IMG/VR virus record: IMGVR_UViG_3300006738_000132
Location: 1-20,283 of that record
From: a virus
Direction: 5' to 3' (one strand)
Length of the DNA stretch: 20,283 bases
The translations under genes were made by a program, and so were the position numbers. Below, piece after piece: positions 1 to 18,800 of this stretch; position 1 is the stretch's first letter; every line of letters starts with the position of its first letter. The notes beneath the pieces are model-generated. The model did not search any database and was not told the origin of the DNA. It saw nothing but the letters and a program-made list of their open reading frames with translations.

Positions 1-3000
1 AACATAATCATAAGGCCAGTTAAATTCAATTGGATATGTACTAGATTTTTTAGTCGGAGTATCGAAAACTTCACCCTTATTGGCTGATTCTCCAGCTTGT
101 GAAGTGATCTGATCTTCATAACTTACTTGTGAGCGCTGTTTTACTTTAAATACCATCCATCTTGTGCTTTTACTAAGTACATCTTCGGCTTCTAATAATT
201 CATTAGCTGCGAGAGGATGTGCTACAGAAGCGAAAGTCTTAGTAATCTTCTGATAATTGCGAGGCGCTAAGTTCTGCCAAATATAACTTAAATCATCTTT
301 ATCGAACGTATATTCAAATTCAAAAATATACATTGCCATCGGATCAACTGCGAGATTATTAATAAAATCAAATTGTGGTGGCAAATTATATCTTTGCATT
401 TTTTGAACTAATTTTCTAATGGATTCTCCTGCGAAATCTGTGGAGTCTCCCGTTTCACTGCCAATAGCCGAATCAAGACAAGCATCTATTTTTTTTCTAT
501 CTATGGAAAAGAATGTCTTACTTTGCTGTCTATAATTAGATAGCGTAGAATCTCCCGTTGATACTTCTGTTGAATATGGTACCGCTACGATTGCTTCTTT
601 GATAGTGATGTTTTCGGCCAACTCCCCTAAACGTTTTGAAGTATTATTAATGTCAAACTTAACAATGTCCGTTAAAGATTTCATAGTCTTGTATGTGTTG
701 GCGCCCAAGCCACTTGCATTATTCTTATTGTAAGCGCTGTTGTTGGTGATCACATCGTAATGATATTTTAGCCATTCTGTTGGAATGTCTCCAATTTCCA
801 AAAAGATACCTTTTGATGGATCTGGGTCAATTATACCAAATTGATGCCACATGCCACGAGGAACTGATGCTGAAGAATATGATGGGAGACTGAGAGTTGA
901 GTCAGCGTTTGAGATTGGATGAGTTCCTTGGTTGTTAAAGTTCAGCATTGGTGTCTCCATCTTAGGCTGAATTACCCATTTCTTGCCAACGGTCTCATTC
1001 TCGGATAGTATTGGGTTACCGAATTTATCTACCCTTTGTCTTGCTACTCTTTCGATTCCAAAGCAATTAATGCTTGCGCTAATTTGCATTGCATTGGCAT
1101 TTATATTCTTGCCGTCATAGACAAGATCATCTTCATCTCCGTAAAGAGATCTAATATTGCCACTAAATGTGGGCAACAATTGTGTACCAGACAGGTTTGT
1201 GGTGGCGTGGATTCCGCTTGATGAGGAAACCCCAGGATCGGCGCGCCAATAAATTGTTTTTGTCTCTGATAATATCTTTTCTAAATCATATTTAGTGTCG
1301 GCCGTAGGTTCAAAAATGATATCAAGCCAGGATTCGCCATTGTAATATGGTGGAGTATACGCCCAATTGAAGCCGGCAACACTATCGGCAGGATTCGACA
1401 ATACAACATATGATGATGACCCCAAAGCTCCCGAAGGTCTTCCGGCAATTGCAGGCCCAAAGGCTGTGGGTCTAGAGTACATCGTAAAGTTTTCTTGTAA
1501 TTCGTTCTTGGGGGCTTGCCTAGGATCTTGAGGCAGCGGAAAAACACCAGTCATAAAAGTATTGGCTGTAGTGTTATATGCTTTGCCTCCATATTGACCA
1601 TATGCAACATTGTTGCCGCTTGAGCCGGATTCATACACGTATGTTCTGCTGCCGCTTAAAGAGCGACGAATACTTAAACGCGCTCCGTAAACACTTCCGG
1701 ATTTAAATTCTAAATCTGATGTAACAGTATCTGATTCGAGGCGCGTATATCCACCATCCTTTAGGAAGAAATTGCCCACCTCTCCAAAAAAGTTTGATGC
1801 CATCAAAGAATATATCGGGTCGCCCTTTCCTTTAAACGCGCCGGTTACGTTAAGAGAAGCCGAGGGGTGCGGCTCAGTATCGAAAAATCTCACATCAGTA
1901 AGATATTTTTCAGGCTTAATTAAAGTTTCGAAGGGGATTCTATAGTCCCAATATGGGCCGCCATCATATCCTTCACCCGCAGGCAACCCTGTCGCAGTTT
2001 CTGCTGTAAGCATCCATGCGCTAGCGGACGTTTTATGTGCGGCGCCATAAAATGTTCTGTTAAGCTTCGTTGGTTCTGTGACTATTGGATAATCGACAGC
2101 TATTCCAGATTTAATTGTATTATATAATAAACCAGGGGAGTATAATGCTTGCATTAGTGGGCGCACTGTGCCGCCTTTCGATCCGGGATTTTGTTTTGCG
2201 GCATCTTCTCCGATTATTGAATTGATAAATGAATTCTTGAATCTTGTTACTAAATCAACTGTACGCTGTACTGGATAAAAGCCCTTATAAGGATTGAGCC
2301 TGATAGATGCGCTACATACTAACATAATCTCGCTAGCGCCCAAAAGGGTCTCTTCACTAACTTTTAAGAATTCAGACATAAAATCAGAATTGGAATAATC
2401 TTTGTAGAAATTGCTCTGTGAGCTATCTTTGCCTGTTCCCACAACTTCAAACGTATCAAATTTATTATCCGCAGTAATACCAAATTTCTTATAATCTTCG
2501 ACATGTTCGCTTATTCTAAATTCTGGGACTATGGCGAAATCTTTACTAATTTTACCTAAATCGTATTTAAAAGCATCATAATCATTAAACCATGGTTTCG
2601 ATGAATGTGATTGAAAGGTGGCTACGCCACTATCTTTCTTAATAATTCCCGCTTGACTGTCGGCTTCCCAAACGGCTTCGCCAGTATATAATCCAACAAC
2701 AACATCAAATTTAGTTGTATATGAGCCAGTTTCGGCAATGGGGATTCCAGAAGGACTAACAACACTGGGGGCGCCGGGAAGAACATGTTTTCTAGCATAT
2801 AATGCGGAAGCTGCGAGATTTAATTTTCTCCGAGCGGCAGCAGAGAACGTGCCGGATACAATATGGAAATATTCATTTTGTAATTCGCCGGCGCTATTTG
2901 AAATTTTTAATATAACATTACTGGCCAATTTAATGTAAGGAATTTCGTTCTCGGCTCTAGTAAGGAAATCTGTAGGTTCATCTAGTGGCCATGCGCTTTG

Positions 3001-6000
3001 GGTTAAATATACTCCAAATGAATTTGTAAAAATATTATCATTATGTAAAGTATTTCTCGCAGAGCGTGTATCTCTCCAATACAGATTATTATATCCTACT
3101 CTCGTGGAAGAACCGGTCGTAAATTCGTTGATCTTCGAGGGAAACAATGTTTCGGAATATGCAACCCAGTTCAGTTTATAACCAGTTGTGGCATTTCCAA
3201 TATCAACAATTTGCTTAAATGCTGTAGATTTAACCGGCGGATTATGAAACAATCTTTCATTCAATTCAGAATCACTAAAATAAAGATTTTCATTGCCATA
3301 AGTTGATCTCAAGGTAACATTCTCGCCTTCAACATCCATATTGATTGAGGCCGGCTGTCCTCGAATTGTAACGGGCTTCACGGTATATCTCTGCGATGTT
3401 CCCAAATCGCACGTAAATGTGTTGTTCTTGCGGTGTTTTCGTAATATCGGGTGCGCAGAGGGACCGGTCTGGGGGGCGCCGCGATAACCAAAAGTATTCT
3501 TACGTTTGGTCATCAGTAAATTGAAAAAGTCTGCCTTCTGATTAAGATTTCCTACAATTCCATATTTGCTGGCGCCAATTAATGTGGTATTATAATAATC
3601 AGCATTGCCAGAAGTAGCGGGATATCCTAGAATATTATCATCATTATCATCGGCCGGATCGTTTATATAGTAATTTAATTCTAAGGCTGGCTGATAAATT
3701 GCTGCTGTTCCAGCAATGCCCAAAATGGCGCTAGCAGATACAAAATCAAAGTAAGCGGTCCAGCCTGTAGCCGAGCTAGAATAATAACCTGCTTGCGGAC
3801 CATAAATTGGAGCATAGCCCCACCACCTTAAGCCTGTCCCGACTAAACTACTCGTTGTGGTTAAGGCATCTTCCGCCAAAGATCCAGTTATCCAGGCATA
3901 CTGACGGTCGGCGCGCGGAATTTGATGCTGCACAAAGAAGTTATCATATTGAGAAGAAGTAGAATATGTTCCATCGGCATTTTGAACAATTCTCCTGCGA
4001 GTATTTCTTTGAATTTTATTGAATGATGCCGATTCATTAGTTGTTGCGCCCGGGGCTGCGATCCATGTGGGATCTCTTCCGAATCGACCGGTGTGGCGAG
4101 CTAAATGAGTTCGAAGACCAAAATCTCTTCCATGAATATCAGTTACTCTAATCCCGGGCGTTCCGGATCCGGTATTCTCAGAAATCGCACCAGACATGTT
4201 CTGATTTGGTCTTATGGTGGATAAATTCCTATAATTAATGGCATTATATACAGAATATTCTCCGGAACGAATATCACCATATCCCGGGTTCATTGTCTCC
4301 ATACCGCCAACAGATGAAAACCTGCCGCGAATAATTGTCTTGTTGGTACTCGCTGTCAAATAATTGATTGAATATGCTGGTACAAATTCGAAATGACTAT
4401 CCGCATCTCTTCTTATATCTAAAATCGAACGACCTTGTGTGCCTGAAGGGGTATTTGTAAGCTGAGACGGTAACGAGGGTTGATTATCTATAAAACCTCG
4501 GGGATTTGTGAAAGCTCCGACACTATGAATGACTTCATATCTATTACTATAGTTTCCTAGTACTGTAGAACCAGTAGTATGCTGAATATTACGAATATTT
4601 ACCGGTCTTTTCGCAATATGATCGCGATAAAATACTGCCTTTTGAGATGCGGTCATTGGATATGGCTTGACACCGATAGCGTTTGCTTCTGGCCATGGGT
4701 AGTCGGCGCCTACCATACCGATGGCGCCGGTGGCAGTTTCAAAGGCGCCCAACAGGAGCTTCCATGCTTCCGGACGATTTGTATAATCATCAGATCCTGT
4801 ATTTAACTTCACATGCCGAGATTGATGGCCTCCCACTGCATATTCTGTAAATGGTCCCTGCATTGGTCTTTCCATATTATCGCCATATACATCATTGTGG
4901 AGATTGGTGATCATTATATTAGCGCTAACATTTTGAATAACATGCTTATTATAGCCCGAATCAACTGACGAACTTATTATATTGAATGGAAATGCTATCG
5001 TTGACTTCACATTCGCATATCCATATCCATCTTCCCAATCGCGACCATGCTGTACTTTTACAATTCTCTTTGTCTTTTTGTTTGGGTATGGCGTAAAGGA
5101 GGCGCTCTTTAGCGGTACCAAATCCTCTTTGAAGGCTAATAAAATATTTTGTGGTACGAATACTCCACCACTAGTAATAACGGGACCAGCAGGATATAGC
5201 GCATTATAAGTAAAGCCTATTCTCTTATCCTTAGAAAAGTTTACGCCGCCGGCTACAATGCCGGGGGATGTATTTTCTACCCTATCAATTTCTATCATAT
5301 ATGGCTTAGAAAAGGCTCTAATTGCTTCGGGATTTGTTTCGTAAACTGTTCCGCCAGCATCAGTAAGAAATCTTTGTTTTTGATCGTTGGATGACGCAGC
5401 GTTTGAGCCAATGCTTCTCAAATCCCTATCAACTGTGTCATCTCCAGAAGTCTTAAATCGGCGTGTTCTTCCTCGTGACTCTCCGCTTGGGGATTTTTGT
5501 TGATTCGCTTGTCGGTTCGTCTTCTGGGTGGCAGCGTCCTCGCCCTTCTGTGTAGATTCAACCTCGTCCTGCACGGCGCCGTATGTCTTCTCTTCGATCC
5601 CCATCATGGGTGCAGAGTCGCGGGGTTCGCGAGCCTTAAATTCTAAAGTCGGGAATTTAGTCTTATATTTGTTTCTTTCTAAAACATGACCTTCGACTAT
5701 ATTATAGGCATCTTTAACAAAGCCCGAAGAGGCCGGCATCATTTGACTAATAATTTCAGCAATTGCATCATCTAGCCATCTATAATAATCAATGTATTTT
5801 TCCACATCAGAAACATATGTTACTTTTCTAAAGAATATCTCTCTTAATTTTTCTAATGATTTGTAACGTTCGCGATATCTGTTAACTGGTTCACCAATTA
5901 TATTATTGAAATCAACAACTCCGGCAAAGAACTTAAGTATTTCCTCAGATATCGCGCTATACATGCTTTTTTCAACAATATGGAAAAACCTGGGGCGCGA

Positions 6001-9000
6001 CTGCATGTCTGGAAAAAAGACTTCATCATTGGTTAAAACTTTAATCATCTCTGAAGATACCGGCGCTTCTGGATCTGTAAACTTCAGAGAATTAAGGCGG
6101 TCTTTATTTACTACATCAGTAGAGCTTGCTGCGAATCCATATCCATATCCAGTGTGTTGATATCCGGCAATTTCGCCAATCCAGCCATAATTATTCCTCA
6201 AGCCAGCAGAACCAGAACTAATATCAGTTACATAATATAAATTACCGCTACTATCTGAGCCAGTTATATTATCAAAATTCCAACTCAAAGCTAATGTATT
6301 TAGATTCAGAGCATCTGTCTGTATCAGATTAGAATCTAATGCTGAAATATTTCTATACGAACCAGAAATACCTTGATTATTTATATCGTACAGATGTTGG
6401 TTAAGTTCACCATCATCCATGTATTTGGTCCAATATTTCAATCCAGCCACAAGAACATCGCTATTATGAAGAAGGGCGCCCGTTACATTCGTCCTGTGGG
6501 CGCCCACATACATTCTCTTGGCAACTTTTGCGAAATTTCTACCTAGGGTCGTTGTAATAGAGGCTGTGGCGTAAAAGCTGTTTTGGACAGTATCGCCGAC
6601 AGCGTTAACGCCTCTAAATTCTACGATATAATTAGAGGTAGTAGAACCAGTTACTATACCGCCAAGTGGATAATCATCTGGCTTAAGCCTGACGGATATG
6701 TTCCATTGTTCATTGTCATAAACATCCAAAAAGGTACTACTAGTTAAAAACGAAAATGGCTCTGGAGAATTCGATGATGTTAATACAAAATAAGCGTTTT
6801 TAGAATTTTTAGAATCTCTAACCGCGAAAACTTGAAAATTTGCTCTATCTGTAGATCGCCATGTTGTGTCGGTGGTTCCGGCACTATCGTCAGGATCGAC
6901 AACCTCATACATTCCAAATAGAGATGCTGAGTTAAAATCTCTATCGAATGTGTCCATACAATTATCCAATTTATTATAGCTAGGAAAAATTATATTCGCT
7001 TCGGCCGTGAATCCATATCTGGGTTCTTTGGTGTTTACGTATGATCCGGTAATAAATCCAACCGAATTTGGATTCGAAGAATCTTTGCTCTGATATACAA
7101 CGCCCTCTATGTTCTCTTTCTTGTTTAAATTGATAGAAGTATTCTTTGCTAATGTTAATTCTAGGTTATTCTTTAATTCAAAAACCTGATTGTCAGCATA
7201 TGTTTTGAATTTGACTACTCTATCATCCAAATAAAAACATCTAAGAATATTCTTAACTGCCTTCTCTGTACCTTTGGCTTTATAAATGCCAGATAAACTA
7301 TTGTAAAGATTTAGATAAATTAAATTCTTGGTTTCGCTCAGATCATTCTCAAATAAAGTATCTTGATTTCTATTTGAGAATTTTTCAAGCACCGTCGAAT
7401 CGATAAATAATTCTGGTGTGTAAAGTCCAAGAGACTGTGGTAGATGTTCTGCGAAAGGTATTGGCGAATACGAAGCGCTCGTATAGCTTGGTCTCTTGAA
7501 CGAGGGAAGCGCAGATATTTGCAAATAGAGCTTGTCAAGATATGTTGCAACAATATGTGAAAGCAATCTTAAATCACTTGTTAGGGCCTCTTCTTCTTCT
7601 AATACCCACGAGGGAACTAAATTAACAAAAGCGGCATTATTATTTGAATCGTGAAACTCACCTTTATCTAATAAATCTGACTTTAAAGAAGCTACGTCTG
7701 GATGATTTGAGTGTATGATTGGATCCAGATATTCCGTCGAAGCAGCGCTAGCGCTAACTATCGCAGAACCAGTATTTCTAGAATTAGTTCCATAGCCCGT
7801 CCATACACCATTGCTTATGCGACCAGAATAATCCAATACAGTATTGTCGGTACTAGTGGTTGTCGTAATGCCCTCATTGAACTTATAGTATAAGCCAAGT
7901 GTTGTATTGCTTATATCAGTATTGCTTCCGCCCTTTACAACATCATTATAATAGCGAGCAATCTGATTCGAATCTCTCGCAACTTTCCAGAATCTAAATT
8001 CATCTATAGAACCACTTAATTTACCACAAGTCGCTAGATCCCCCAAATTTCCAATATTACCAGATGGTCTGGATAAAAGGGCGCCGATACGACCCATCAT
8101 GCCCTTGGAATTTATCTCATCTAATGTTGCAGCGCTAGCAGTTCTGTGATTTAAGGCGCCATCAACATATAATTTCGATACAAGAGAGCTACCACTATTC
8201 TGTATAACAAATGCATAATGAGCCCAATCAGATAAAGATGATGCCGAGAGACCTATACCAATTGAAGAAGTATAAATACCAGTGGTACCAGACTGTACTG
8301 TAAGTACAAATGGTGACGTGGTGCCAGCAGGTGCTCCCAAGTGTTTGACCGACCTACTTAGCTCAATTGTAATTCTACCATAATCGGCGCTAGAAGTGGC
8401 AACGTTGTTCCACATATCAAAAACAACTTGCTTCTCGGTTAATGCGGTCCCAAGAGAACCTGTTTTTAGCCAAAATTCAACTGTAACACCTTCATCAAAA
8501 TTGCCTCTTAGGTTTGATTCGCGTGAACCAGAGGCGTAATCGGATGGCAATCCCTCGGAAGTATAAATATCTGTATTGTATATGTTTGAAAATTGTGTTT
8601 TACTATTCGTTGGATTGTCAAAGGCTTCTGCTAATTTCGTGTAAGAGGACGTATTTGGTCCACCAAAAAAAGTAATATATTCTAAACTACTGGGTAGTCC
8701 ATAACCCTCACTGGCGGCCGGCATCGTAGTGGTACCCCACCCATCGGCACTTAATATAACGTAACCATTTGTCCTGGGGTATAAATCATTAAAAACGTGC
8801 TTTTCGACACCCAAAAGTTTATTATAAAATTCATTAATCTCGGCGTCAGATCCGTCATAAGGATAATAATCGTGGATATACTCAACGGCAGATTTATAGT
8901 ATAGATAGGCAGAGCCATATTTCGCGAATTTAGTTGGATCAGAGTAATCTACATGCGGTACAAATGTGTCCTGCTTTGTTTTAAGCGCACGAACATTTCT

Positions 9001-9096
9001 TGCAGATTCGACATCTCCAAATGTGTCTTTTTCATCAGCATCTGACAAATAATTTCTAGTTTTATTTGTTGAATCGAAAAGTTTTTTAATACTCAT
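1..9096 (-). CDS. Giant baseplate/tail-arm protein with LamG-like domains (partial, runs off left edge)
   Basis: One frame stays open from the ATG at 9096 to base 1: 3,032 codons with the stop outside the window. The start is firm, because an in-frame TAG lies at 9103-9105, just upstream. Domains by residue: LamG-like jelly-roll about 130-435, with the family-typical SGSIDEFRFWKVARDSNQIA, then LYYKFNEG and LDYSG. A helical segment about 480-640 holds GIYKAKGTEKAVKN (KGT at 608-610), resembling tail protein I of P2 and the matching part of T4 gp7. A second LamG-like region lies about 675-960 (RMYVGAHRTN, LSWNFDN). A helical segment about 1043-1152 includes DFNNIIGEPVNRYRERYKS and VLERNKYKTKFPTLEF. 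A polar Q/K/S/R-rich linker covers about 1160-1240, followed by beta-rich sequence to the edge with QYAWITGSL near 1735 and FTPPYYNGESW near 2580. The start overlaps the preceding gene by 11 bases and its ribosome site is weak (AGAAGA), so translation is probably coupled. Likely role, inferred: wedge-attached arm or fibre binding surface glycans. Placement in the tail is fairly sure; the function of the distal 1,800 residues is unknown. Confidence 0.85.
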   Translation of the reverse strand, partial: MSIKKLFDSTNKTRNYLSDADEKDTFGDVESARNVRALKTKQDTFVPHVDYSDPTKFAKYGSAYLYYKSAVEYIHDYYPYDGSDAEINEFYNKLLGVEKHVFNDLYPRTNGYVILSADGWGTTTMPAASEGYGLPSSLEYITFFGGPNTSSYTKLAEAFDNPTNSKTQFSNIYNTDIYTSEGLPSDYASGSRESNLRGNFDEGVTVEFWLKTGSLGTALTEKQVVFDMWNNVATSSADYGRITIELSRSVKHLGAPAGTTSPFVLTVQSGTTGIYTSSIGIGLSASSLSDWAHYAFVIQNSGSSLVSKLYVDGALNHRTASAATLDEINSKGMMGRIGALLSRPSGNIGNLGDLATCGKLSGSIDEFRFWKVARDSNQIARYYNDVVKGGSNTDISNTTLGLYYKFNEGITTTTSTDNTVLDYSGRISNGVWTGYGTNSRNTGSAIVSASAASTEYLDPIIHSNHPDVASLKSDLLDKGEFHDSNNNAAFVNLVPSWVLEEEEALTSDLRLLSHIVATYLDKLYLQISALPSFKRPSYTSASYSPIPFAEHLPQSLGLYTPELFIDSTVLEKFSNRNQDTLFENDLSETKNLIYLNLYNSLSGIYKAKGTEKAVKNILRCFYLDDRVVKFKTYADNQVFELKNNLELTLAKNTSINLNKKENIEGVVYQSKDSSNPNSVGFITGSYVNTKEPRYGFTAEANIIFPSYNKLDNCMDTFDRDFNSASLFGMYEVVDPDDSAGTTDTTWRSTDRANFQVFAVRDSKNSKNAYFVLTSSNSPEPFSFLTSSTFLDVYDNEQWNISVRLKPDDYPLGGIVTGSTTSNYIVEFRGVNAVGDTVQNSFYATASITTTLGRNFAKVAKRMYVGAHRTNVTGALLHNSDVLVAGLKYWTKYMDDGELNQHLYDINNQGISGSYRNISALDSNLIQTDALNLNTLALSWNFDNITGSDSSGNLYYVTDISSGSAGLRNNYGWIGEIAGYQHTGYGYGFAASSTDVVNKDRLNSLKFTDPEAPVSSEMIKVLTNDEVFFPDMQSRPRFFHIVEKSMYSAISEEILKFFAGVVDFNNIIGEPVNRYRERYKSLEKLREIFFRKVTYVSDVEKYIDYYRWLDDAIAEIISQMMPASSGFVKDAYNIVEGHVLERNKYKTKFPTLEFKAREPRDSAPMMGIEEKTYGAVQDEVESTQKGEDAATQKTNRQANQQKSPSGESRGRTRRFKTSGDDTVDRDLRSIGSNAASSNDQKQRFLTDAGGTVYETNPEAIRAFSKPYMIEIDRVENTSPGIVAGGVNFSKDKRIGFTYNALYPAGPVITSGGVFVPQNILLAFKEDLVPLKSASFTPYPNKKTKRIVKVQHGRDWEDGYGYANVKSTIAFPFNIISSSVDSGYNKHVIQNVSANIMITNLHNDVYGDNMERPMQGPFTEYAVGGHQSRHVKLNTGSDDYTNRPEAWKLLLGAFETATGAIGMVGADYPWPEANAIGVKPYPMTASQKAVFYRDHIAKRPVNIRNIQHTTGSTVLGNYSNRYEVIHSVGAFTNPRGFIDNQPSLPSQLTNTPSGTQGRSILDIRRDADSHFEFVPAYSINYLTASTNKTIIRGRFSSVGGMETMNPGYGDIRSGEYSVYNAINYRNLSTIRPNQNMSGAISENTGSGTPGIRVTDIHGRDFGLRTHLARHTGRFGRDPTWIAAPGATTNESASFNKIQRNTRRRIVQNADGTYSTSSQYDNFFVQHQIPRADRQYAWITGSLAEDALTTTSSLVGTGLRWWGYAPIYGPQAGYYSSSATGWTAYFDFVSASAILGIAGTAAIYQPALELNYYINDPADDNDDNILGYPATSGNADYYNTTLIGASKYGIVGNLNQKADFFNLLMTKRKNTFGYRGAPQTGPSAHPILRKHRKNNTFTCDLGTSQRYTVKPVTIRGQPASINMDVEGENVTLRSTYGNENLYFSDSELNERLFHNPPVKSTAFKQIVDIGNATTGYKLNWVAYSETLFPSKINEFTTGSSTRVGYNNLYWRDTRSARNTLHNDNIFTNSFGVYLTQSAWPLDEPTDFLTRAENEIPYIKLASNVILKISNSAGELQNEYFHIVSGTFSAAARRKLNLAASALYARKHVLPGAPSVVSPSGIPIAETGSYTTKFDVVVGLYTGEAVWEADSQAGIIKKDSGVATFQSHSSKPWFNDYDAFKYDLGKISKDFAIVPEFRISEHVEDYKKFGITADNKFDTFEVVGTGKDSSQSNFYKDYSNSDFMSEFLKVSEETLLGASEIMLVCSASIRLNPYKGFYPVQRTVDLVTRFKNSFINSIIGEDAAKQNPGSKGGTVRPLMQALYSPGLLYNTIKSGIAVDYPIVTEPTKLNRTFYGAAHKTSASAWMLTAETATGLPAGEGYDGGPYWDYRIPFETLIKPEKYLTDVRFFDTEPHPSASLNVTGAFKGKGDPIYSLMASNFFGEVGNFFLKDGGYTRLESDTVTSDLEFKSGSVYGARLSIRRSLSGSRTYVYESGSSGNNVAYGQYGGKAYNTTANTFMTGVFPLPQDPRQAPKNELQENFTMYSRPTAFGPAIAGRPSGALGSSSYVVLSNPADSVAGFNWAYTPPYYNGESWLDIIFEPTADTKYDLEKILSETKTIYWRADPGVSSSSGIHATTNLSGTQLLPTFSGNIRSLYGDEDDLVYDGKNINANAMQISASINCFGIERVARQRVDKFGNPILSENETVGKKWVIQPKMETPMLNFNNQGTHPISNADSTLSLPSYSSASVPRGMWHQFGIIDPDPSKGIFLEIGDIPTEWLKYHYDVITNNSAYNKNNASGLGANTYKTMKSLTDIVKFDINNTSKRLGELAENITIKEAIVAVPYSTEVSTGDSTLSNYRQQSKTFFSIDRKKIDACLDSAIGSETGDSTDFAGESIRKLVQKMQRYNLPPQFDFINNLAVDPMAMYIFEFEYTFDKDDLSYIWQNLAPRNYQKITKTFASVAHPLAANELLEAEDVLSKSTRWMVFKVKQRSQVSYEDQITSQAGESANKGEVFDTPTKKSSTYPIEFNWPYDYV

Positions 9097-10627
9097 ATTC
9101 TTCTACTCTGAATTTGAACGCATAAGGCTGTTCGGACCAAGAAGACAATGCATCATCATAGAAAGCAAATTTAAAAGCATATTCGTATCCCGGCTCTAAA
9201 AGCTTCATGTCAAAATCAAAATAATTACCAGAAACATCATATGATAATTGAGTATGTAAATCAGATCCGGTACCGTAGGAAACTGCTCCATAACCATCCA
9301 TTACTCTAAACACCCTATAAGAAGCGCTTATGATTGTGGTGCCTTCCGGAGTTGCATTTGCTATCGTATAAATGGTCGGACTCCAATTTTTATTTCTGAT
9401 ATATAGATTGAATCTGGCTGTTTCATCATTACGATACTTGTTTCTTAAGTTGGTAATATTCATATAGTATACTGGCTTTGTAACCGTTTGAGCAGCTTTC
9501 AATATTATTGGCTCAATTGTACCAGTAGTATATTCAACGCTAGAACTGTGCCAAACATCGTAAAGTGTTGAGGCAGTTGTGGCAGCGGCGCCAGATATTG
9601 CAATGGAGGCAGTATAAATACCTGTGGTCTTAAGGCCGCCCGTAATATTTGTATTTCCATCATACAATACTAATTTGGAACCGCTGGGTGCTGAATCATG
9701 GGGCGCGGATCCGGAATACAAACTTACCAATATTAAACCTGCTTTTATGCCAGGAATATTTACGAGCTTTCCCCTAACGTAGTTATAAAGATAAATTACA
9801 TTCAAATTATCTGTTGCTGGTGCCAAAGAACTACTATAATAAAAATTTCCTCTGTCATCTTTTGTTGTTGAATTCCAGCGTGCCTCAATTACTGGGCGCT
9901 TAAAGAAATACTGTGAACCTCTTGCGAAAAAACGCTTTGTATAATATGATTTTGTGGCGCCACTTACATTGTGAATAACGCTACCGCTATTTTCACCAGT
10001 CGAACTAGAGAAATAAGCTTCGTAGCTTTGAGATAGATATATCCCAACGCCATAATTGTTATAATCTCCAGTAATCCATTGCTCTACAGACGGAGTAATA
10101 TCAATCTCAAGATCTTCTAAACCAGTAGTAAATGACTGACTATAGGCACGCTCGCCCTCAGTCGCGGCTGCACCGGTAAGAAAATCGCCACCAACATTAG
10201 TCCAGAGCACCCCTTTAGATGCAGACAGCCAATTGGCGCCAGTATTACCTTTTGTCTCGTCTTTGTATGTTTCTAAATCGAGGCCGGCGCCTTCTTCCCA
10301 AGACCGAGATACGAGTGCGACAACCAACTTATAATCTTCTGGAACTGTTTTTGAGTGTTGAGCATTGGATATCCGTAAATAAAAACTTACACTACCGCTA
10401 GCGGGAACGATTCCCGCTGTTCTATCAGAAGAAATATCAGTTATCGGAAATTTCATAAGAACTCTGGAAAGTTCTTGGGAACTGGTACTTTGGCGCGCGT
10501 AGACTGAAAACACCTCTACAACATCGGCGTGGCCCATATTGGAACCGGTACCTCGCGTCTTTAAATTTGACTTATAGGCATTAACAATAGTTGTATCAGC
10601 CGAAGCTGTATAATGTTTTAAAGCCAT
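9086..10627 (-). CDS. Tail protein with N-terminal DNRLRE/CBM96-like beta-sandwich, 513 aa
   Basis: Residues 1-253 follow the pattern of the DNRLRE (CBM96-like) domain: an opening ADTTIVNAY near 10-18, LMKFPITDIS near 57-66, VVALVSRSWEEG at 102-113, IDITPSVEQWITG at 175-187, then GVGIYLS at 193-199 and a closing segment KRFFARGSQYFFKRPVIEAR at 231-250. Residues about 275-513 form a second beta-rich part rich in Tyr, Thr and Ser, with SYDVSGNYFDFDMKLLEPGY near its end; I know no functional assignment for it. I see no signal peptide or membrane segment. The gene sits where a P2-like operon would pass from J directly to I. Its ATG shares one base with the stop of the J-like gene (TAATG), and its own end overlaps the giant gene by 11 bases, so the three genes look translationally coupled. 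Inferred role: adaptor, or sugar-binding partner of the giant arm. The beta-sandwich call is fairly good; binding activity is not shown. Confidence 0.85.
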   Translation of the reverse strand: MALKHYTASADTTIVNAYKSNLKTRGTGSNMGHADVVEVFSVYARQSTSSQELSRVLMKFPITDISSDRTAGIVPASGSVSFYLRISNAQHSKTVPEDYKLVVALVSRSWEEGAGLDLETYKDETKGNTGANWLSASKGVLWTNVGGDFLTGAAATEGERAYSQSFTTGLEDLEIDITPSVEQWITGDYNNYGVGIYLSQSYEAYFSSSTGENSGSVIHNVSGATKSYYTKRFFARGSQYFFKRPVIEARWNSTTKDDRGNFYYSSSLAPATDNLNVIYLYNYVRGKLVNIPGIKAGLILVSLYSGSAPHDSAPSGSKLVLYDGNTNITGGLKTTGIYTASIAISGAAATTASTLYDVWHSSSVEYTTGTIEPIILKAAQTVTKPVYYMNITNLRNKYRNDETARFNLYIRNKNWSPTIYTIANATPEGTTIISASYRVFRVMDGYGAVSYGTGSDLHTQLSYDVSGNYFDFDMKLLEPGYEYAFKFAFYDDALSSWSEQPYAFKFRVEEYEY

Positions 10628-12435
10628 TATCTAATTTTTCCTTTAATATCCACTCCCGGGTATTTAAGTTCTGCAACAGCATTTTTCGGAATGACAACAT
10701 AGGTTCCGTCCGGAGACATATTTTCGTTGATATCAAACTGTACACCAGAATAACTCGATGCAGTTCCCGTTCCACTTTTGTTTATTATCTTTACTTTAAC
10801 AACGTCAAGAACACCCTTAACTTTGTTCAATTCAGTAAAGATGTCTGTCGTATACACTGGCTCGCCGATATAGAAACTATTACTATAACGTGATTGTAAT
10901 TGTGCTACACAAGCTTGCAAAACATCATATTTATCAACACCAGTAGTTGGGGTAATTATAAACTCAATCCCAAAATTAATAACAAAGGCATCTAGAATAT
11001 CAATAGTATCAGTTATCATTCTATATTTGTTAAGCCATGTTTTTAAATTATCTTTTATAGTTGAATTTGCAGTTGTAAGTTTTTTAAATTTATCTTCAGA
11101 AATAATATACATATTCAGATTTCGTTTTCTTGAATCCGGATCTCTTTGAACAGAACATCTTTTAATAGAGCCAAATTTGCCCGGCATGCGATATGCCAAA
11201 TTTTCATAATCAGCCTGAGTTACTGCTCTATTCTGTGTCGGGAAGGTGTCGAAAATTCTTCTTTTAATCTCGCTTGTAGTTGCGTTTGTTACATCGCCAA
11301 CTATGGGCTCTTCATTCGTTATCTCAACAGATGATAAAATTGTATTAACAGTTCCGACATTAAGCGATTGTCTATCTTTAAACTCTAGTATGGCGTTTGG
11401 AACTTGTGTTAATGTATTTACTGCTAAATTGGAATTAACAGGATTGGTAACTCGATATGTTACATTCAACGTTGTGTTCGCGGGAACAATTCCCAGACTA
11501 TCATTTTTGCTTAATCTTGTTGGATCAAATGTGGTATCGGTCACATAAGTTTTTGCAAAAATATCCATAGCTACAGCGCCAGGATCAGCTATAACATCTG
11601 AGGCACCGGGCTTTCCGCTTCCAAATTGAAGTACTGTCCGATTTCTACCTCTTTCTACAACAAATTTTCTTGATACTAAATATGGCTTTAAAACTGATGG
11701 TACATTGTCGGACTTAAAGTTAATATTGGATACCTCTTTAAAGATCATGTCTTGTGATAGATTGTCTACTTCAAAATATTCTTTTCCATCTGAATCGATG
11801 ACAGAAACAATTTCTGAAATATTTTGAGTTCTTAGCCCGATTTTAAAAAATCTTTCATACGCACCTACCGTTAATTTTTCACGACCAAAAAAACCAGATA
11901 CTACATTTCCATATGCCTTGATCGCATAATATGTTGGGGCGCCCGTAGAAGTATTTGTTCTTGCAGCAACAATCGGATTTTGAGGCGCATTAAAATCAAC
12001 ATTCTCGGTGAGAACAAAATTTAATCCAGTATCCGATGTAAATCTAGAGCCACGCTTCATAATTGGAACATAATCCTTGTCTGGTCCCAAACCAGTTGAT
12101 GAAGCTGGTACCAACACATATATTGCAACTTTACCGAAAGTTGATGGTCGGCCAGTATATTTATATCCTAAAATTCTGCCTTGTCTTAAGACATTATCAT
12201 ATTGATACGCAGTATCTAGAAATGTCTCATTAACATTATAATCTAAATAGAAAGAAAGCTGGTCACCAACGTAAGCGACCGCATCAACCATCATGGCCCC
12301 AAAGGAGCCCTCACTAAAATCTTGGAAAGTATCAGGATAGAGACGCTCCGCTATTTGTACAAGATCCTTGCGGATTGAATTAAATTCTCTATGAGTATAA
12401 TCAATAGGAACTATCTTTTTCTGCTCATCGGCCAT
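10627..12435 (-). CDS. Baseplate wedge protein, gp6/gpJ-like, 602 aa
   Basis: This is the wedge subunit that forms the ring around the hub in contractile tails. The N-terminus (about 10-107) has the family pattern: DYTHREFNSIRKDLVQIAER, then FGAMMVDAVAYVGDQLSFYL and NETFLDTA. Around 403-423, NRAVTQADYENLAYRMPG is typical of the Baseplate_J core, and about 522-550 (IGEPVYTTDIFTELNKVKGV) is the usual C-terminal J element. At 602 residues it is close in size to T4-type gp6 (about 660) and about twice P2 gpJ (about 300), so it is better seen as gp6-like. The start is supported by a strong GAGGG at 12442-12446, six bases from the ATG. It follows the gp25-like gene by 16 bases, the classical order. 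Its stop overlaps the next start by one base. Confidence 0.93.
   Translation of the reverse strand: MADEQKKIVPIDYTHREFNSIRKDLVQIAERLYPDTFQDFSEGSFGAMMVDAVAYVGDQLSFYLDYNVNETFLDTAYQYDNVLRQGRILGYKYTGRPSTFGKVAIYVLVPASSTGLGPDKDYVPIMKRGSRFTSDTGLNFVLTENVDFNAPQNPIVAARTNTSTGAPTYYAIKAYGNVVSGFFGREKLTVGAYERFFKIGLRTQNISEIVSVIDSDGKEYFEVDNLSQDMIFKEVSNINFKSDNVPSVLKPYLVSRKFVVERGRNRTVLQFGSGKPGASDVIADPGAVAMDIFAKTYVTDTTFDPTRLSKNDSLGIVPANTTLNVTYRVTNPVNSNLAVNTLTQVPNAILEFKDRQSLNVGTVNTILSSVEITNEEPIVGDVTNATTSEIKRRIFDTFPTQNRAVTQADYENLAYRMPGKFGSIKRCSVQRDPDSRKRNLNMYIISEDKFKKLTTANSTIKDNLKTWLNKYRMITDTIDILDAFVINFGIEFIITPTTGVDKYDVLQACVAQLQSRYSNSFYIGEPVYTTDIFTELNKVKGVLDVVKVKIINKSGTGTASSYSGVQFDINENMSPDGTYVVIPKNAVAELKYPGVDIKGKIR
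10639..10644 (-). promoter_or_regulatory. Probable ribosome binding site of the 513-aa gene, inside the J-like gene
   Basis: AAAGGA on the minus strand lies 11 bases before the ATG at 10627, within the last codons of the J-like gene. The spacing is longer than ideal, but the start shares a base with the upstream stop (TAATG), so re-initiation by the same ribosomes is likely. Confidence 0.5.
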
Positions 12436-12451: not shown

Positions 12452-12820
12452 TTAAATAGTAAATTGTAATAAATCTGTCGTGCCAATTCTGGGGATAGAA
12501 TACTTAATGGATACTGATAGCCGATTCATGTCTTGGTCGGCTGCATCAAACGATACGCGTTGGATCTTGACAAATGGCATATACTTCTTAGTTTGCTCTC
12601 TTATTCTTAAATCTATGTCGCCATAAGTACTTTGGTCAAATTGTCCAAATAAATAGGTTTTCATGCCGACGCCGTATGCAGGATCCATAACTCTTTCTCC
12701 AGGAACAGTAAGAATTAACATCTTAAAATTCTGTTTAATCGCCGCCCTCATTGTTTTAAGCAAAGCGTAACCGTCACCCGAATCTTGTGTTATCGGCAAT
12801 TTTGGTGCCAAACCAGCCAT
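12452..12820 (-). CDS. 25: Baseplate wedge protein, gp25/gpW-like, 122 aa
   Basis: This is a small wedge protein of the GPW_gp25 family, which joins the J/gp6 ring to the sheath and hub in phages, type VI secretion systems and contractile injection systems. The diagnostic segment is TVPGERVMDPAYGVGMKTYL at residues 38-57: the Gly-Glu-Arg of the family is at 41-43, Asp-Pro at 46-47, and the glycine-containing turn leads to LFGQF at 57-61. A helix (about 18-33) precedes it and an alternating beta pattern (about 85-110, RVSFDAAD and SVSIKYSIP) follows, as expected. Length fits the family (about 110-140). Older names call it a lysozyme, but the family is structural. The start is supported by GAGGT at 12829-12833, eight bases upstream. 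The J-like gene directly downstream strengthens the call. Confidence 0.95.
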   Translation of the reverse strand: MAGLAPKLPITQDSGDGYALLKTMRAAIKQNFKMLILTVPGERVMDPAYGVGMKTYLFGQFDQSTYGDIDLRIREQTKKYMPFVKIQRVSFDAADQDMNRLSVSIKYSIPRIGTTDLLQFTI

Positions 12821-12828
12821 ATTATATT

Positions 12829-12833
12829 ACCTC
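12829..12833 (-). promoter_or_regulatory. Ribosome binding site of the gp25-like gene
   Basis: GAGGT on the minus strand lies eight bases before the ATG at 12820, in the 32-base gap between the 2,267-residue gene and the gp25-like gene. This gap is the longest non-coding stretch in the window. It holds no recognisable terminator hairpin, so the two genes are probably co-transcribed. Confidence 0.75.
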
Positions 12834-12852
12834 GTTACTATAAATACTATTA

Positions 12853-15800
12853 TCATTCAATTTCGCACACATTTCCGTCAGCATCAAACGGATTAGTTCT
12901 TAATCGACCTCGCATCCACCATGGTACTTGTCGAAGTCCCGGATCTGGTCTTAAGTGCTGTCTTAGTTTCTTTCCTATAATTTCACTAGGACTATCGAAA
13001 CCTTCAAAAATCATATTAGGCTTCAGTTGCTTCGAACCATAGAAGGACATAAACAATTTCTTAATCCTAGATCTAGCATTTCTGAGTATTTCTTGGCTCC
13101 AAAAATCATATTCCACTACGCCAAATCCTGCTAATGGATTAAAGGTAGTCTCTGGAAGGCGATCACGGAATGCTGCCCAAGCGCCATCTGGGGCATCGGG
13201 GCGTGTGCGCAACTCGGCGCCTGTGATAATTTCGATTGGTATCTCACTACTATACGTAACATCCTCTGGTTCTGACCACGGGAACGGATCGCGAACGCTT
13301 TTTGTAAATTCGACTTCAACAACAACTGGCTCGCCGGTGTTGAGATCGCGAAGCGGTTCTTTAATTATATTAACCTGCAATCCGGGTTTGGCGCTAGTAT
13401 CAAATCTCTGTATTAATCCTTGGACCTGCTTCACGGGATTTGGATTTACGATATTCCAAAACGTTTCATTACGCTCAACAGTTAATTCACCTATAGAGGG
13501 TAAAATTCCCATATCATTATAAATCGCTGTCAAGCCAGTTAATTTATTTAATGGAAATATATATTCGCTGACGAGTTTAAATTTCTCATCGTTTTTCAAA
13601 ATATTAATCAAACAAAGTAATAATTTACTATCACCCTCAAGCTTAGCAAATTGGCTAAGTGGTAAATCTAAGGCATCAACCTCAACAGATGTTATTTCAT
13701 ATTTGGTGCCATCGATTACTATAGAGAATAATAGACCATAGCGAACGCCCAATTTGCCAGTTAAGCCAACCGAATTTCCGCTTTCATCTTTAACAATCTT
13801 AAGTGAGCCCGGATACACATCTGAAATATTTTGTGCCTGATCTGAGGTACCTCTAATCTGATCATATGCCGATTCAGGCGCTTTCTTTTGTCCGTTAATA
13901 GAAATATATTTCTCTAATATAAATGGGCCCTCTGTTGCAGCAGCTATCCTTTTATCTTGATCATCGTGAACCCATTCCGGAACATCTCCAATTGGTAGTG
14001 ACATTTTATGAACCAACGGATATAATGTATCATGAAGATCCTCGGTATGTTGTTGCCCGGTCATCCACACAAAATCTCCGTTATCATCCAATATTACATG
14101 GTAATAGCCTATATATTCTTCGCCAGCCCTTAAGCCAGTTTCATCTTTATCTTCTCCAATTACAAATTCGCCTCCATAGGTGTAATAATATCTTGGGGCG
14201 CCAGTAATATCTGTCGTTTCTGTACCCACATCGATATAATTTATCGTGAATGAACCATCCGGATTCATTGCCTTATTCAAAGTGAGGGCACTATCAACAG
14301 TCATCTCTTCTAATAAATAATAAGCCATATCTTGTACTTCTGGATGCCATCCGAGCTTATCCATATTATCTGTGAACTTGGCCGCCATAAAGTTTACTTG
14401 CTCGACTACCAACTCTTTAAGGATTATTTTGGCATCTTCCTCGGTGGCCCTAACAGCCTCTAAATTCTTATCTAATCTATAGGCCCCTAGTGTTTGAAAA
14501 AGCCCTGCATCGCCAGTAAGTTTTGCAGTCAACAAATCATCCCGAAATGGATAGTCATATTCTGCTTGCATATCATTAAGTCTAAAAAGAGCATCTAAAA
14601 CTGCAGGCGGGGGATCCTGTATATCTCCGCTATCGATAAGCATTGCATACATTTGTACCGATTGTTCCAAAAATGCATACCAAAATTCTTCATCTTTAAA
14701 AACATTAAATAATTCCCAAAGAGGAGGTTGTGCATCTTTAAAATGACTTTCCATAACTTCTATAATGTAAGAAGCATAAACAGAACTAAGTACCTCCGGA
14801 CAACGCGGCGCAAACTTCATAAATGTTGGAAATCCTTTGATAAAATGTGCGCAAACATATATTCTGATGGCCGCCGTAATAAGCCCTACCATACCAGCTT
14901 TTGCAGGACGCTGTAAAATTCTATTATACGGTAATTCTAAGGCGCAAACTGAATCAGATTTCAATCTTTCATCTTCCGGAATATTCGGGTATAGATCATC
15001 AATCATCTTTTGAATTTGTTCGAAATCAATTAGATCGGTTTTCGTTGGCTCGCACGGATTTGGTTCAGGGAAGAATGCATCTATTAATCCAAGCCACCCT
15101 TCTGGCTGCTGCGGTCTAACATGAAATGCGGGACGAAGAAACATCCCTCCGAATGTAGTAGGATCTAAATAGATCACCCTTACATCATCCATTGTGCCGC
15201 CGGCTAAAAGAGTATTATGCTGATTTAAACTGATGCCCAATACCATATCTTTTTCGGTGTACCCGTATTCCTCGCCAAATAAAACTTGCTTTGCTTGATG
15301 ATACGGTACGAAATTAGTAGGATCATTGGGATCTGCAATTCCATACGTAAAATCTTTTGGAGACAAGGTGTCAAAGCTGGCGCCATAAGCCCATCCACTT
15401 TTTTCTTTTGCATTAATATCGGCAACGGTCTTGAAGAACGTATCTAAAGTATTTTCTATAAATTCAGATCTAAAAGTTTTGGCTGCAGCCAGGGAAGGAC
15501 CAGCGCCATTCTCTTTCTTTATTAATTCTGATAACAAAATAGTCGGAGGCTCATAAGCTGCCTTTGTCTGGAAGGAATTCATAAAAGCTGGGTAATCACT
15601 CAAAAACTCTTCACCCACAACATCAAGGGTATTGTCCGCAGCTATAAATTCATATTTAAGGGGATCTAAAACATCGTACTCGACACTTCCAGCTACCATG
15701 GTGTTGCCAACATCAATTTTACTTTCGAGCATCTGGCGCCCAACGCCGAGAGTACCTTCAAGCAAAGATTGTACGGTGGTGTCGTCTTCGTTAACAACGT

Positions 15801-18800
15801 CAAGAAGTTTCGCATGAGGTGATTCAGCAGCCTCTAAGTATACGTTTACATTGGCCGCCATGTTAAACCTCTCGATGATTTTTATTCTTACGTTATCATC
15901 TGGTCGGTTGGCGATTACTCCATCTTCATTTTCTACCAGATCACCAAAATAGGTATAAATATCAAACCCATATGAATATGCTGACTCTGGTTCGATGCCC
16001 GATGCCATACCTTTAGCGTTATCACTAAATGATAAAGTTATATCAGGATTTGCCTTTCTTCCCTTTATCGTAAACTCAACTTCCTCAATTCTTCCGAATT
16101 CGGGGATCCCAGCATCTTCATTAATTATCGGCTCCATTTCGACATTATAGCCAAAATCCGGAAGTGCCACCAAATCAACATTAGAACTAAAACTGCCAGA
16201 AAAAACACCCAATTCTTCTAATGTTTTTGTCCAGCTTTCATCATCTTGCCAATCATTATTTAAATCAACTTTTGCTAATGCAAATTTTTCAACATCATTA
16301 ATCCCATTTTGTAAATATGCGGCAACTTTCGTTGGGAAAGCTCCCCGCTGAAGTTGTAACATGTGAGGTGCTGCCATCACCGCAAATAAAGGGTTAAGTG
16401 CTGACATCGCCAGCATCAAATATTGATCTGGCTCCCAGGTTCCATAAAAATCGACGTAAGGGTGTACCGACATGCGCTTGAAAGCCACATTGATCATATG
16501 CGCTGTCAGTGGATTACCCATAGTGTCCGATAATATCATATTTAACATTCCCCAATCAGATGGCATTGGCCCGGATCCAAGCATGTCAGTTAAAAAATCA
16601 ATTTTAAGTTGTTCTAAGGTAGCACCAAGACCACCGACAACAGCCGTTGCCGCCACTTCTGATTCATATGGTATCAGTCCGTTGTCACAGCCAGGATCAG
16701 AAACAAGGGGGGGCATGTTATTTTCTAGAAAACCATCTAGATTCTGCATAATAGAACTAAGATCGCCCAAGTCATCCTTCATTTGATCTTGTAAATTGTC
16801 GCACATTTCTCTTGCTTGTCCTGCTGTTGCTCTTCCACACAAAAGATCGGCCCTTAATTCACAGAATTGTTCTAATAATTCTGGATCAGCACAAATTGTA
16901 GGATTAGCTGGTGTTGCATCGTTTTCTGGCAATTGATCTGTGTAATCCTGTAAATTTGATCTGAACGGGGCCGGCATTAAATTGCCTATATTTTTAAAAA
17001 AACTACCGATTGCCTCTTTGTTGGGAATGGCAGATCTATAATCTGGATACTCATACTCTATAAGACTATCTACGATATCAAGCATATCATTGGCAGGATT
17101 ACCCAAAAAAGCGTTAATTAATTCTAATTGCGTCAAAGAAGATGAAATATCTTCAGCAAAGGCAAGTGTTTGTTGTTCGTCAGCTAGTGCTGCAGCGCCA
17201 ACACCCAAAGAAGAAACCAATTCAACAACAGCACTATCAACAGTTTCATCATCAGCCTCTTCCCCACAAATTGACTCTCTAATCATATCTTTAAGCACAT
17301 TTGGGTTTCCAGACGCTAATGCTGTTGTAATATCACCAGATTCTACGGCATTAGAGATCGCATCGCCGACAGCTTCACATACTTTAACCAACAATTGCGT
17401 TAATATTTGCGTGATTGCCGCGTGAATCATTTTCTCAAGAGCTTCAAATAAAGCCCCGAACAGATCTGAAATTTTAGGAATCCACCCAAATGGATTAACT
17501 AATTTCGGCCACACAACATCATTAATATCTCTGCAGAACGGATTCGGCAATTCTAAGTTATGCATGAAATCTGCTACGTCAGGATTAAGAAATGGAGTAG
17601 TAGGGCAATCCACTGCAAGAATAGTATTAGCAACTAATTGCGCGCCAGGGAATTTGTTTAATTCATCCAATAATGTTAATAAGTCATCCTGATAAGCCTC
17701 CATGATGGCACTGACATAAGCTTCCATGGCAACTCTAACACTAAATTGAGAACCAGTGCCCCCACTAACAATATCATATCGTTGAGCTAGCGTTCTTCGA
17801 GTAGATTTATAAGCGATTTCCACGTCCTCGGAAGATGTACCATAAGCGCTTGGACTTTCTGTCTTTTCTTGTTCAGAAAGGCTATCGTCAGTCCAGGGTT
17901 TTACCAAAGAGACGCCGGCGCCTATCGCATCTGAAATTTGTTGATTGATGAGTTCATCGTCAAAAATCTCACCTTCTTCTAATTTTTTTAAGGCTAATTG
18001 TTCTATTTCTGTCTGCCGGCTTGCTTCAAGTTCAGAAAATAAAACACCAAAATTATTAATTGACATTCCCCGCACGCCACTCTCAGTAACAGCACCCAAA
18101 GCATCTTCAAGGGTAAGCCCACCCATCAAGCTTGTCATTGCTTGCATAAAAGTATCAAATAAGCCACACATTTTGATATCATCAAAACCTTCAGACCATA
18201 ATTTATCTAATTGTTCTTCTCCAGTTGACGTGAAGCTCTCGGCGCCGGCATTAGCCATCCTATCACAGAAGTCTTCAAAAGGCGCCGAAGAAGTTTCAAG
18301 CGATTGATGTTCTTGCTCCTGGGCCATGGCATATATATCAGCTTGCTCTTGCGCTGGATCAGTATCGTCTGAAGAATCGGGATTCGGCGTTACCCCCATA
18401 TCAATATCTTCTTCAGTTTTTTCTAAAAGAGAAGCTTTACATGCTGACTCGTGAAATTTATATGCAATTGCATCACCAATGCTAAAGACTTCATCAAGAA
18501 TATCTTGACCAAGCTGTTTCCCTTCTGCCGCTAAAGCCTCCGCGACACAACTAGACTCCTCTTCCGATGTTGTATCGCTTATATATACTTCTGGATAAGT
18601 ATACTTAATAACAAACTCTGTCCAGGGCATCGGAATTCGAGCGGTAAGATCAAGAACCATTTCGTTTAGTTGGGTAAAATAAGCCATGGCTGTTGAATCT
18701 TTCCAGGCTGACTGGGCCCTTAGCTCATCCAGCTTGTCCGTCATGACAACGGCCACATTATTACAACCCTCAGTAAAAAATAAAATTTTCTTTAAAACAT

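Follow-up and report, generated by a model that had tools for sequence, protein, structure and literature searches.

The window analysed here is an entire IMG/VR record of 20,283 bases, in which the genes lie, in transcription order, as a partial P0006, P0005, a gp25 gene, a gp6/J-like gene, P0002 and P0001. P0001 is read from an ATG at 9096 on the minus strand and continues to window base 1, giving 3,032 codons without a stop; its frame overlaps the 3′ end of P0002 (9086-10627) by 11 nt, and its stop codon lies outside the record. The first-pass annotation had described a frame open from 9096 to the edge, at least 3,032 residues long, lying directly behind J-like and beta-sandwich genes and encoding a giant baseplate-operon protein. 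Each of these statements was upheld. P0002 follows gp25 and the gp6/J-like P0003, and the gp25, gp6/J-like and P0002 neighbours support the baseplate assignment. The features are listed below, with residues numbered along P0001.

1-9096, minus strand: P0001, the giant baseplate protein, of which 3,032 residues lie in the window (open ATG frame; 62 complete relatives; omega 0.04-0.31)
1-3543, minus strand: C-module, residues 1852-3032, without its last residues (AlphaFold model)
3706-3738, minus strand: join between gene A and gene B, residues ~1787-1797 (split relatives)
3727-5346, minus strand: module M3, residues 1251-1790, which in split relatives form the second half of gene A (profile A2)
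3970-3996, minus strand: insertion hotspot, residues 1701-1709 (insert positions in relatives)
5347-5646, minus strand: charged, fast-evolving linker, residues 1151-1250 (42% K/R/E/D/Q)
5662-5988, minus strand: core part II, helical, residues 1037-1145 (common to Mel-JY01, immuto and LR756508)
6079-7164, minus strand: beta-rich predicted domain between the core parts, residues 645-1006 (AlphaFold model)
7207-7731, minus strand: core part I, helical, with a KGT motif, residues 456-630 (common to Mel-JY01 WWT39511.1 and immuto gp109)
7735-8775, minus strand: LamG/pentraxin domain, residues 108-454 (PF13385 and fold match of the AlphaFold model)
9086-10627, minus strand: P0002, beta-sandwich protein between gp6 and P0001 (homologues by profile in the equivalent position of Mel-JY01, 2e-28, and of immuto, 2.9e-20)
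10627-12435, minus strand: P0003, gp6/J-like baseplate wedge protein (phrog_6, 6.2e-18)
12452-12820, minus strand: P0004, gp25-like baseplate wedge protein (PF04965, 3.9e-13)

The gene order around P0001 is kept in its relatives. P0002 also showed a weak Disaggr_repeat match. Directly upstream of gp25, at 12853-19656 on the minus strand, P0005 encodes a second giant of 2,267 aa; it has 24 complete relatives of 2,127-2,377 aa (identity 26% and up) and gave no tblastn match among 50,697 phage records.

Searching viral contigs with the P0001 protein gave 32 relatives (26-100% identity), many of which match along the whole length, and at least 337 stretches were confirmed with a C-terminal profile in one viral-contig scan. 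ORF analysis identified 62 distinct relatives that are complete and uninterrupted, with start and stop both inside the contig and a single frame holding all parts; these range from 2,643 to 4,317 aa (median 3,288). The nearest full-length relative, L002, has 3,094 aa and is 70% identical to P0001, suggesting that ~60-80 further residues of P0001 lie past the window edge. All modules of P0001 are under purifying selection (NG86 omega 0.04-0.31 per module, against L004/L002). P0001 is therefore a real, selected gene. The chance that its frame is an assembly artefact or a fortuitous open frame is negligible, being already refuted by the relatives and opposed by the selection, and the 62 complete single-ORF relatives exclude a sequencing error as the origin of the long frame; the error or stop that the first-pass annotation had named as its possible undoing was found nowhere in the window. 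One relative of 86% identity, L004:3859-9255, lacks residues ~370-645 of P0001 in frame, core part I included, which is either a true deletion or an assembly collapse.

Comparison of the whole of P0001 with PHROGs and Pfam gave no match, and the LamG domain was seen only on scanning slices of P0001 or its relatives. In such slices, PF13385 (Laminin_G_3) matched residues 201-380 with 31.5 bits, above its gathering cut-off of 27.6, and the AlphaFold model of residues 108-454 aligned at Z 18-20 with the LamG domain of PAPP-A and with pentraxins over ~200 residues, a ConA-like jelly-roll. By both profile and fold, residues 108-454 belong to the LamG/pentraxin-like domains, with glycan and calcium binding putative. 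Residues 645-1006 may be a further LamG-like domain, for which the fold evidence is weak; immuto mostly lacks this region, having 84 residues between its core matches. The helical core that flanks it was matched in part I to WWT39511.1 (iE 5e-14) and immuto gp109 (2.5e-13). AlphaFold confidence on the helical core was low, with pLDDT <50 at residues 527-609 and 1046-1101, so that a comparison of its fold is not meaningful. Beyond core part II, the linker at residues 1151-1250 shows 38-52% identity against 74-90% in the neighbouring modules. A baseplate-anchoring segment and lectin-like domains had been proposed to share one chain; an anchor-like segment and a lectin-like domain are both present, and the LamG domain precedes the anchor core.

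Module M3 is conserved among the relatives. At its insertion hotspot, relatives carry ~150-370 extra residues, often a LamG domain, and PF13385 matched the slice around the hotspot in 16 of 35 relatives. At residue ~1790, near the end of M3, the chain is divided in one clade, where the last ~1,240 residues form a separate gene B. Two adjacent genes, split at position ~562/~610 of profile A2 (window residue ~1790), were found in L028, L163, L170, L177/L178, L181, L183 and L187, and in an unrooted tree of the C-module the rows split there form a single clade of 7 (SH-aLRT 97). Six of the 7 junctions read have F-P-[TS]-A-S-x-I-x-G as the end of gene A and a GGAG-type ribosome site ahead of the ATG of gene B, whose start is marked by a motif like LDFVGLN; stop and start lie a few bases apart. 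Both ends can be read joined in the fused window, as FDFVSASAILG then IAGTAAIYQPALELN, and in the fused L160, as ...FVDFAGLNTYIYEP. The adjacent genes of this clade identify the giant as two joined genes, and the tree, being unrooted, leaves undecided whether fusion or fission came first. In the same tree L152 is split elsewhere, independently, and further splits near module borders occur in L093, where they may include assembly errors, and in the N-terminal part of L183 and L187. The earlier description of P0001 as one protein thus stands for the 62 single-ORF relatives and fails for the clade with two genes, which makes it lineage-dependent.

The C-module was modelled by AlphaFold from an alignment of 70 sequences, and the pLDDT of 86.6 and pTM of 0.88 over 1,181 residues indicate one compact predicted unit. 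Foldseek of this model against the PDB returned nothing at E 0.001 (best E 1.6), an absent match that does not prove a new fold, and VIA-align against Foldseek's candidates reached Z 3.6 at best. PDB sequence-profile searches with all three parts of P0001 gave nothing useful. Among predicted viral structures (BFVD) the C-module found only homologues (E 1e-80 to 2e-37, 18-30% identity), which come from uncultured viruses (A0A516M7I0, A0A1B1IWQ4, A0A0F7LAZ6 and others); these are unnamed or 'uncharacterized', and the sources found assign them neither a function nor a family. The C-module is as well conserved as the anchor, and Pro, Gly and aromatic residues make up most of its invariant positions. 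Across the distal 1,800 residues the first-pass annotation had seen short Tyr/Trp-rich motifs that recur, and had been able to name no domain. The motifs could not be confirmed: Tyr (5.2-6.2%) and Trp (1.3-1.4%) do not exceed their overall levels in the N-terminal parts, and internal repeats were rejected, with none by self-BLAST and 25 repeated 4-mers against 20.8 ± 4.6 after shuffling. The second observation was borne out, no domain having been found in what is a conserved compact predicted unit; nor did the distal part match a non-virion family, the result that would have told against the earlier description.

The window is too short to show gp23 or sheath genes, and markers of the Far-T4-like kind were therefore read in long relatives. 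In all eight of these (155-196 kb) there is a capsid protein of the T4 gp23 type (E ~1e-60) as well as a match to a contractile sheath. The carriers of P0001 are T4-related myophages, and probably of the Far-T4 kind, a group described from aquatic viromes (PMC4360716) and linked in silico to marine Bacteroidetes (PMC7198788). A profile search of RM378 found neither the N-terminal part nor the C-module, and the HTVC008M genes annotated 'baseplate wedge initiator' did not match P0001. The C-module profile likewise found nothing in T4, HTVC008M, RM378, Mel-JY01, immuto or LR756508, C-module queries found nothing in phage and plasmid records, and neither M3 nor the C-module had a tblastn match among the 50,697 phage records; the ~1,800 distal residues were found in no isolate among the records searched. 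In bacterial and archaeal genomes four MAG stretches matched, three of which come from contigs shorter than 8 kb, and these give no basis for host assignment. L205:5013-6848 (CP070664.1) lies on a 2.8-Mb WOR-3 MAG chromosome, where a 611-aa ORF matches only the last 40% of the C-module and adjoins opposite-strand genes; it is a remnant, a phage piece or a chimeric assembly.

Two further observations were made in the relatives. The frame with the sheath match has 968-1,122 aa in L031, L033, L141, L145, L131, L028, L060 and L125, far above the usual T4-type sheath; that of T4 has 659 aa. In L109, two downstream families (12604-14040 and 21355-22350) have similar starts, FLNKKEQVYDLKLTSYGHYLLSxGKFK and FLDNSGDIILDAVLTDxGRKRLAQGNFK, as if paralogous, and equivalents of both occur in L111, L012, L028, L181 and L187.

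The reading that we favour, and consider somewhat probable, is that P0001 serves uncultured aquatic myophages related to T4 as a giant wedge protein of the baseplate, bridging the gp6 ring and the rim, with its C-module in the place of T4 gp8-gp11. Operon position and cultured homologues make the N-terminal part of P0001 the best candidate for a gp7-like bridging place. The core would dock onto the gp6/gp25 ring in the manner of T4 gp7, each wedge having about one chain, and the LamG domains would be displayed as glycan-contact modules. The C-module would form a rigid outer baseplate rim, a single chain for the job that T4 spreads over gp8, gp9, gp10 and gp11; this rim would carry fibres and relay receptor contact to the gp6 ring, leading to sheath contraction. 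We infer where P0001 sits in the virion and in how many copies, as well as its part in the rim, its part in the trigger and its binding of glycans. The rim role is suggested by a C-module that is conserved like the anchor, with Pro, Gly and aromatic invariants and with variable LamG domains inserted beside it, as might be expected of a rigid rim or scaffold displaying variable glycan-contact modules. Core homologues at the same operon place in Mel-JY01, immuto and LR756508 argue for a wedge protein; against it, homology of the core to T4 gp7 is not detectable, and a weak likeness to P2 gpI is confined to the KGT segment. The profile of T4 gp8 (PF09215) matched in T4 and HTVC008M and in none of seven long relatives, and that of gp9/10 (PF07880) rose above cut-off in T4 only, with two sub-threshold matches in relatives, although a missing profile match does not mean that equivalents of gp8-gp11 are absent; gp25 was found in all genomes of this comparison. 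These results suggest that the recognisable T4 periphery is missing where the ~1,800-residue extension has been added. A bolder proposal is that the C-module, as one very large unit of ~1,180 residues, has a new fold and by itself makes up the baseplate rim, so that a widespread uncultured lineage, of which the records searched contain no isolate, would do without the multi-protein periphery of T4; this is possible, and we put it forward tentatively, at rather less than even chances.

Host-contact parts commonly sit at the C-terminus of a baseplate protein, and the C-module, as a large C-terminal unit, occupies that usual place; with LamG domains in the same chain and inserted beside it, it might be the main receptor-binding or glycan-processing unit, an enzyme or adhesin attached to the wedge anchor through the charged linker, with a rim built from other proteins. 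We regard this as unlikely, because receptor-binding parts usually diverge and the C-module is as conserved as the anchor, because its invariant residues are mostly of structural types, and because no enzyme or adhesin fold was matched, none of these points being decisive. Less likely again is that the chain undergoes cleavage at the linker or near residue 1790, either on assembly or in the virion, yielding a separate anchor and rim that the two-gene relatives make directly. The variable charged linker would suit such cleavage, as would the natural split near residue 1790 in one clade and the other module-border splits in L093, L152, L183 and L187; however, no cleavage site or protease was identified, and split genes show only that some lineages can do without a continuous chain. 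Very long tail proteins are often tape measures, tail fibres or ejected internal proteins, but such a role is highly improbable for P0001, whose core is common to proteins of 1,265-1,400 aa at the same baseplate-operon position. Tail fibre and tape measure were rejected on composition and on the model, as the distal part is not repetitive and its model is compact and rich in beta structure, unlike a fibre or a long helix.

Concanavalin domains have been reported in pelagimyophage structural operons (PMC7029224), so baseplate proteins with lectin-like domains were already known. What is new here is the size, the joined two-gene make-up and a C-module without a known fold match. The papers searched, few of them subscription ones, do not describe a protein of the P0001 type, although homologous sequences had already been deposited, and PHROGs, Pfam, the PDB and the 50,697 phage records hold no model for it. 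Since the giant combines an anchor resembling a wedge protein with a domain of a sugar-binding type and a very large compact unit unlike the solved structures found, a major part of the infection machinery in a common uncultured phage group appears to be still undescribed; such a protein seems to be the centrepiece of the machinery by which these T4-related phages, known from at least 337 contig stretches, make contact with their hosts. If the C-module is indeed the rim, it would represent a second, single-chain way to couple receptor contact with sheath contraction. In the two-gene relatives gene A and gene B are already separated by nature, which brings expression and structural work within reach, and the core-only isolates immuto and Mel-JY01 allow a direct test of the anchor role.

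Among known systems, the closest relationships are to phages that share the core. The profile of residues 1-1150 found Mel-JY01 WWT39511.1 (1,336 aa, E 2.4e-15), immuto gp109 (1,265 aa, 3.6e-15) and a 1,400-aa ORF in the 484-kb LR756508 (2.4e-20), all unnamed or annotated 'hypothetical protein'; the core regions carry the match, and the remainder is not recognisably shared. Microcystis phage Mel-JY01, Flavobacterium phage immuto and LR756508 have the same two-part core and the same order of gp25, gp6, P0002 homologue and core gene, but their homologues, unlike P0001, have neither M3 nor the C-module. The uncultured LR756508.1 (L204) thus holds a block of gp25, gp6, beta-sandwich and wedge core in common with the two cultured phages. 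The LamG/pentraxin (ConA-like) domains share the fold of residues 108-454, which in P0001 is one domain of a far larger chain.

T4 gp7 is a monomer, present in six copies per tail in the wedge, that bridges gp6, gp8, gp9 and gp10; with gp8 it forms a platform for gp6, one of its domains is bound by gp9, and it shifts together with gp10-gp11 as the baseplate switches state (PMC3004832). No homology of the P0001 core to gp7 was detected by hhalign (P 0.36), and the A1 profile had no match in the T4 genome. P2 gpI (Tail_P2_I, PF09684) aligned with the KGT segment over 38-72 columns (hhalign, P 0.005, probability 7%), and the best PF09684 score, 12.5 bits against a cut-off of 20.6, fell at the KGT segment of L031, in one of eight genomes. 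P0001 shares with gpI the place after J and weakly resembles it at a short KGT-containing segment; gpI has 176 aa. The 1,032-aa gp7, for which neither LamG nor a C-module is reported and which belongs to a phage with a rim made of gp8-gp11, is encoded close behind gp6, as is P0001 with one gene (P0002) between, and the proposed bridging of gp6 and periphery would be common to both. P0001 may work like gp7 or gpI, and is filed as neither.
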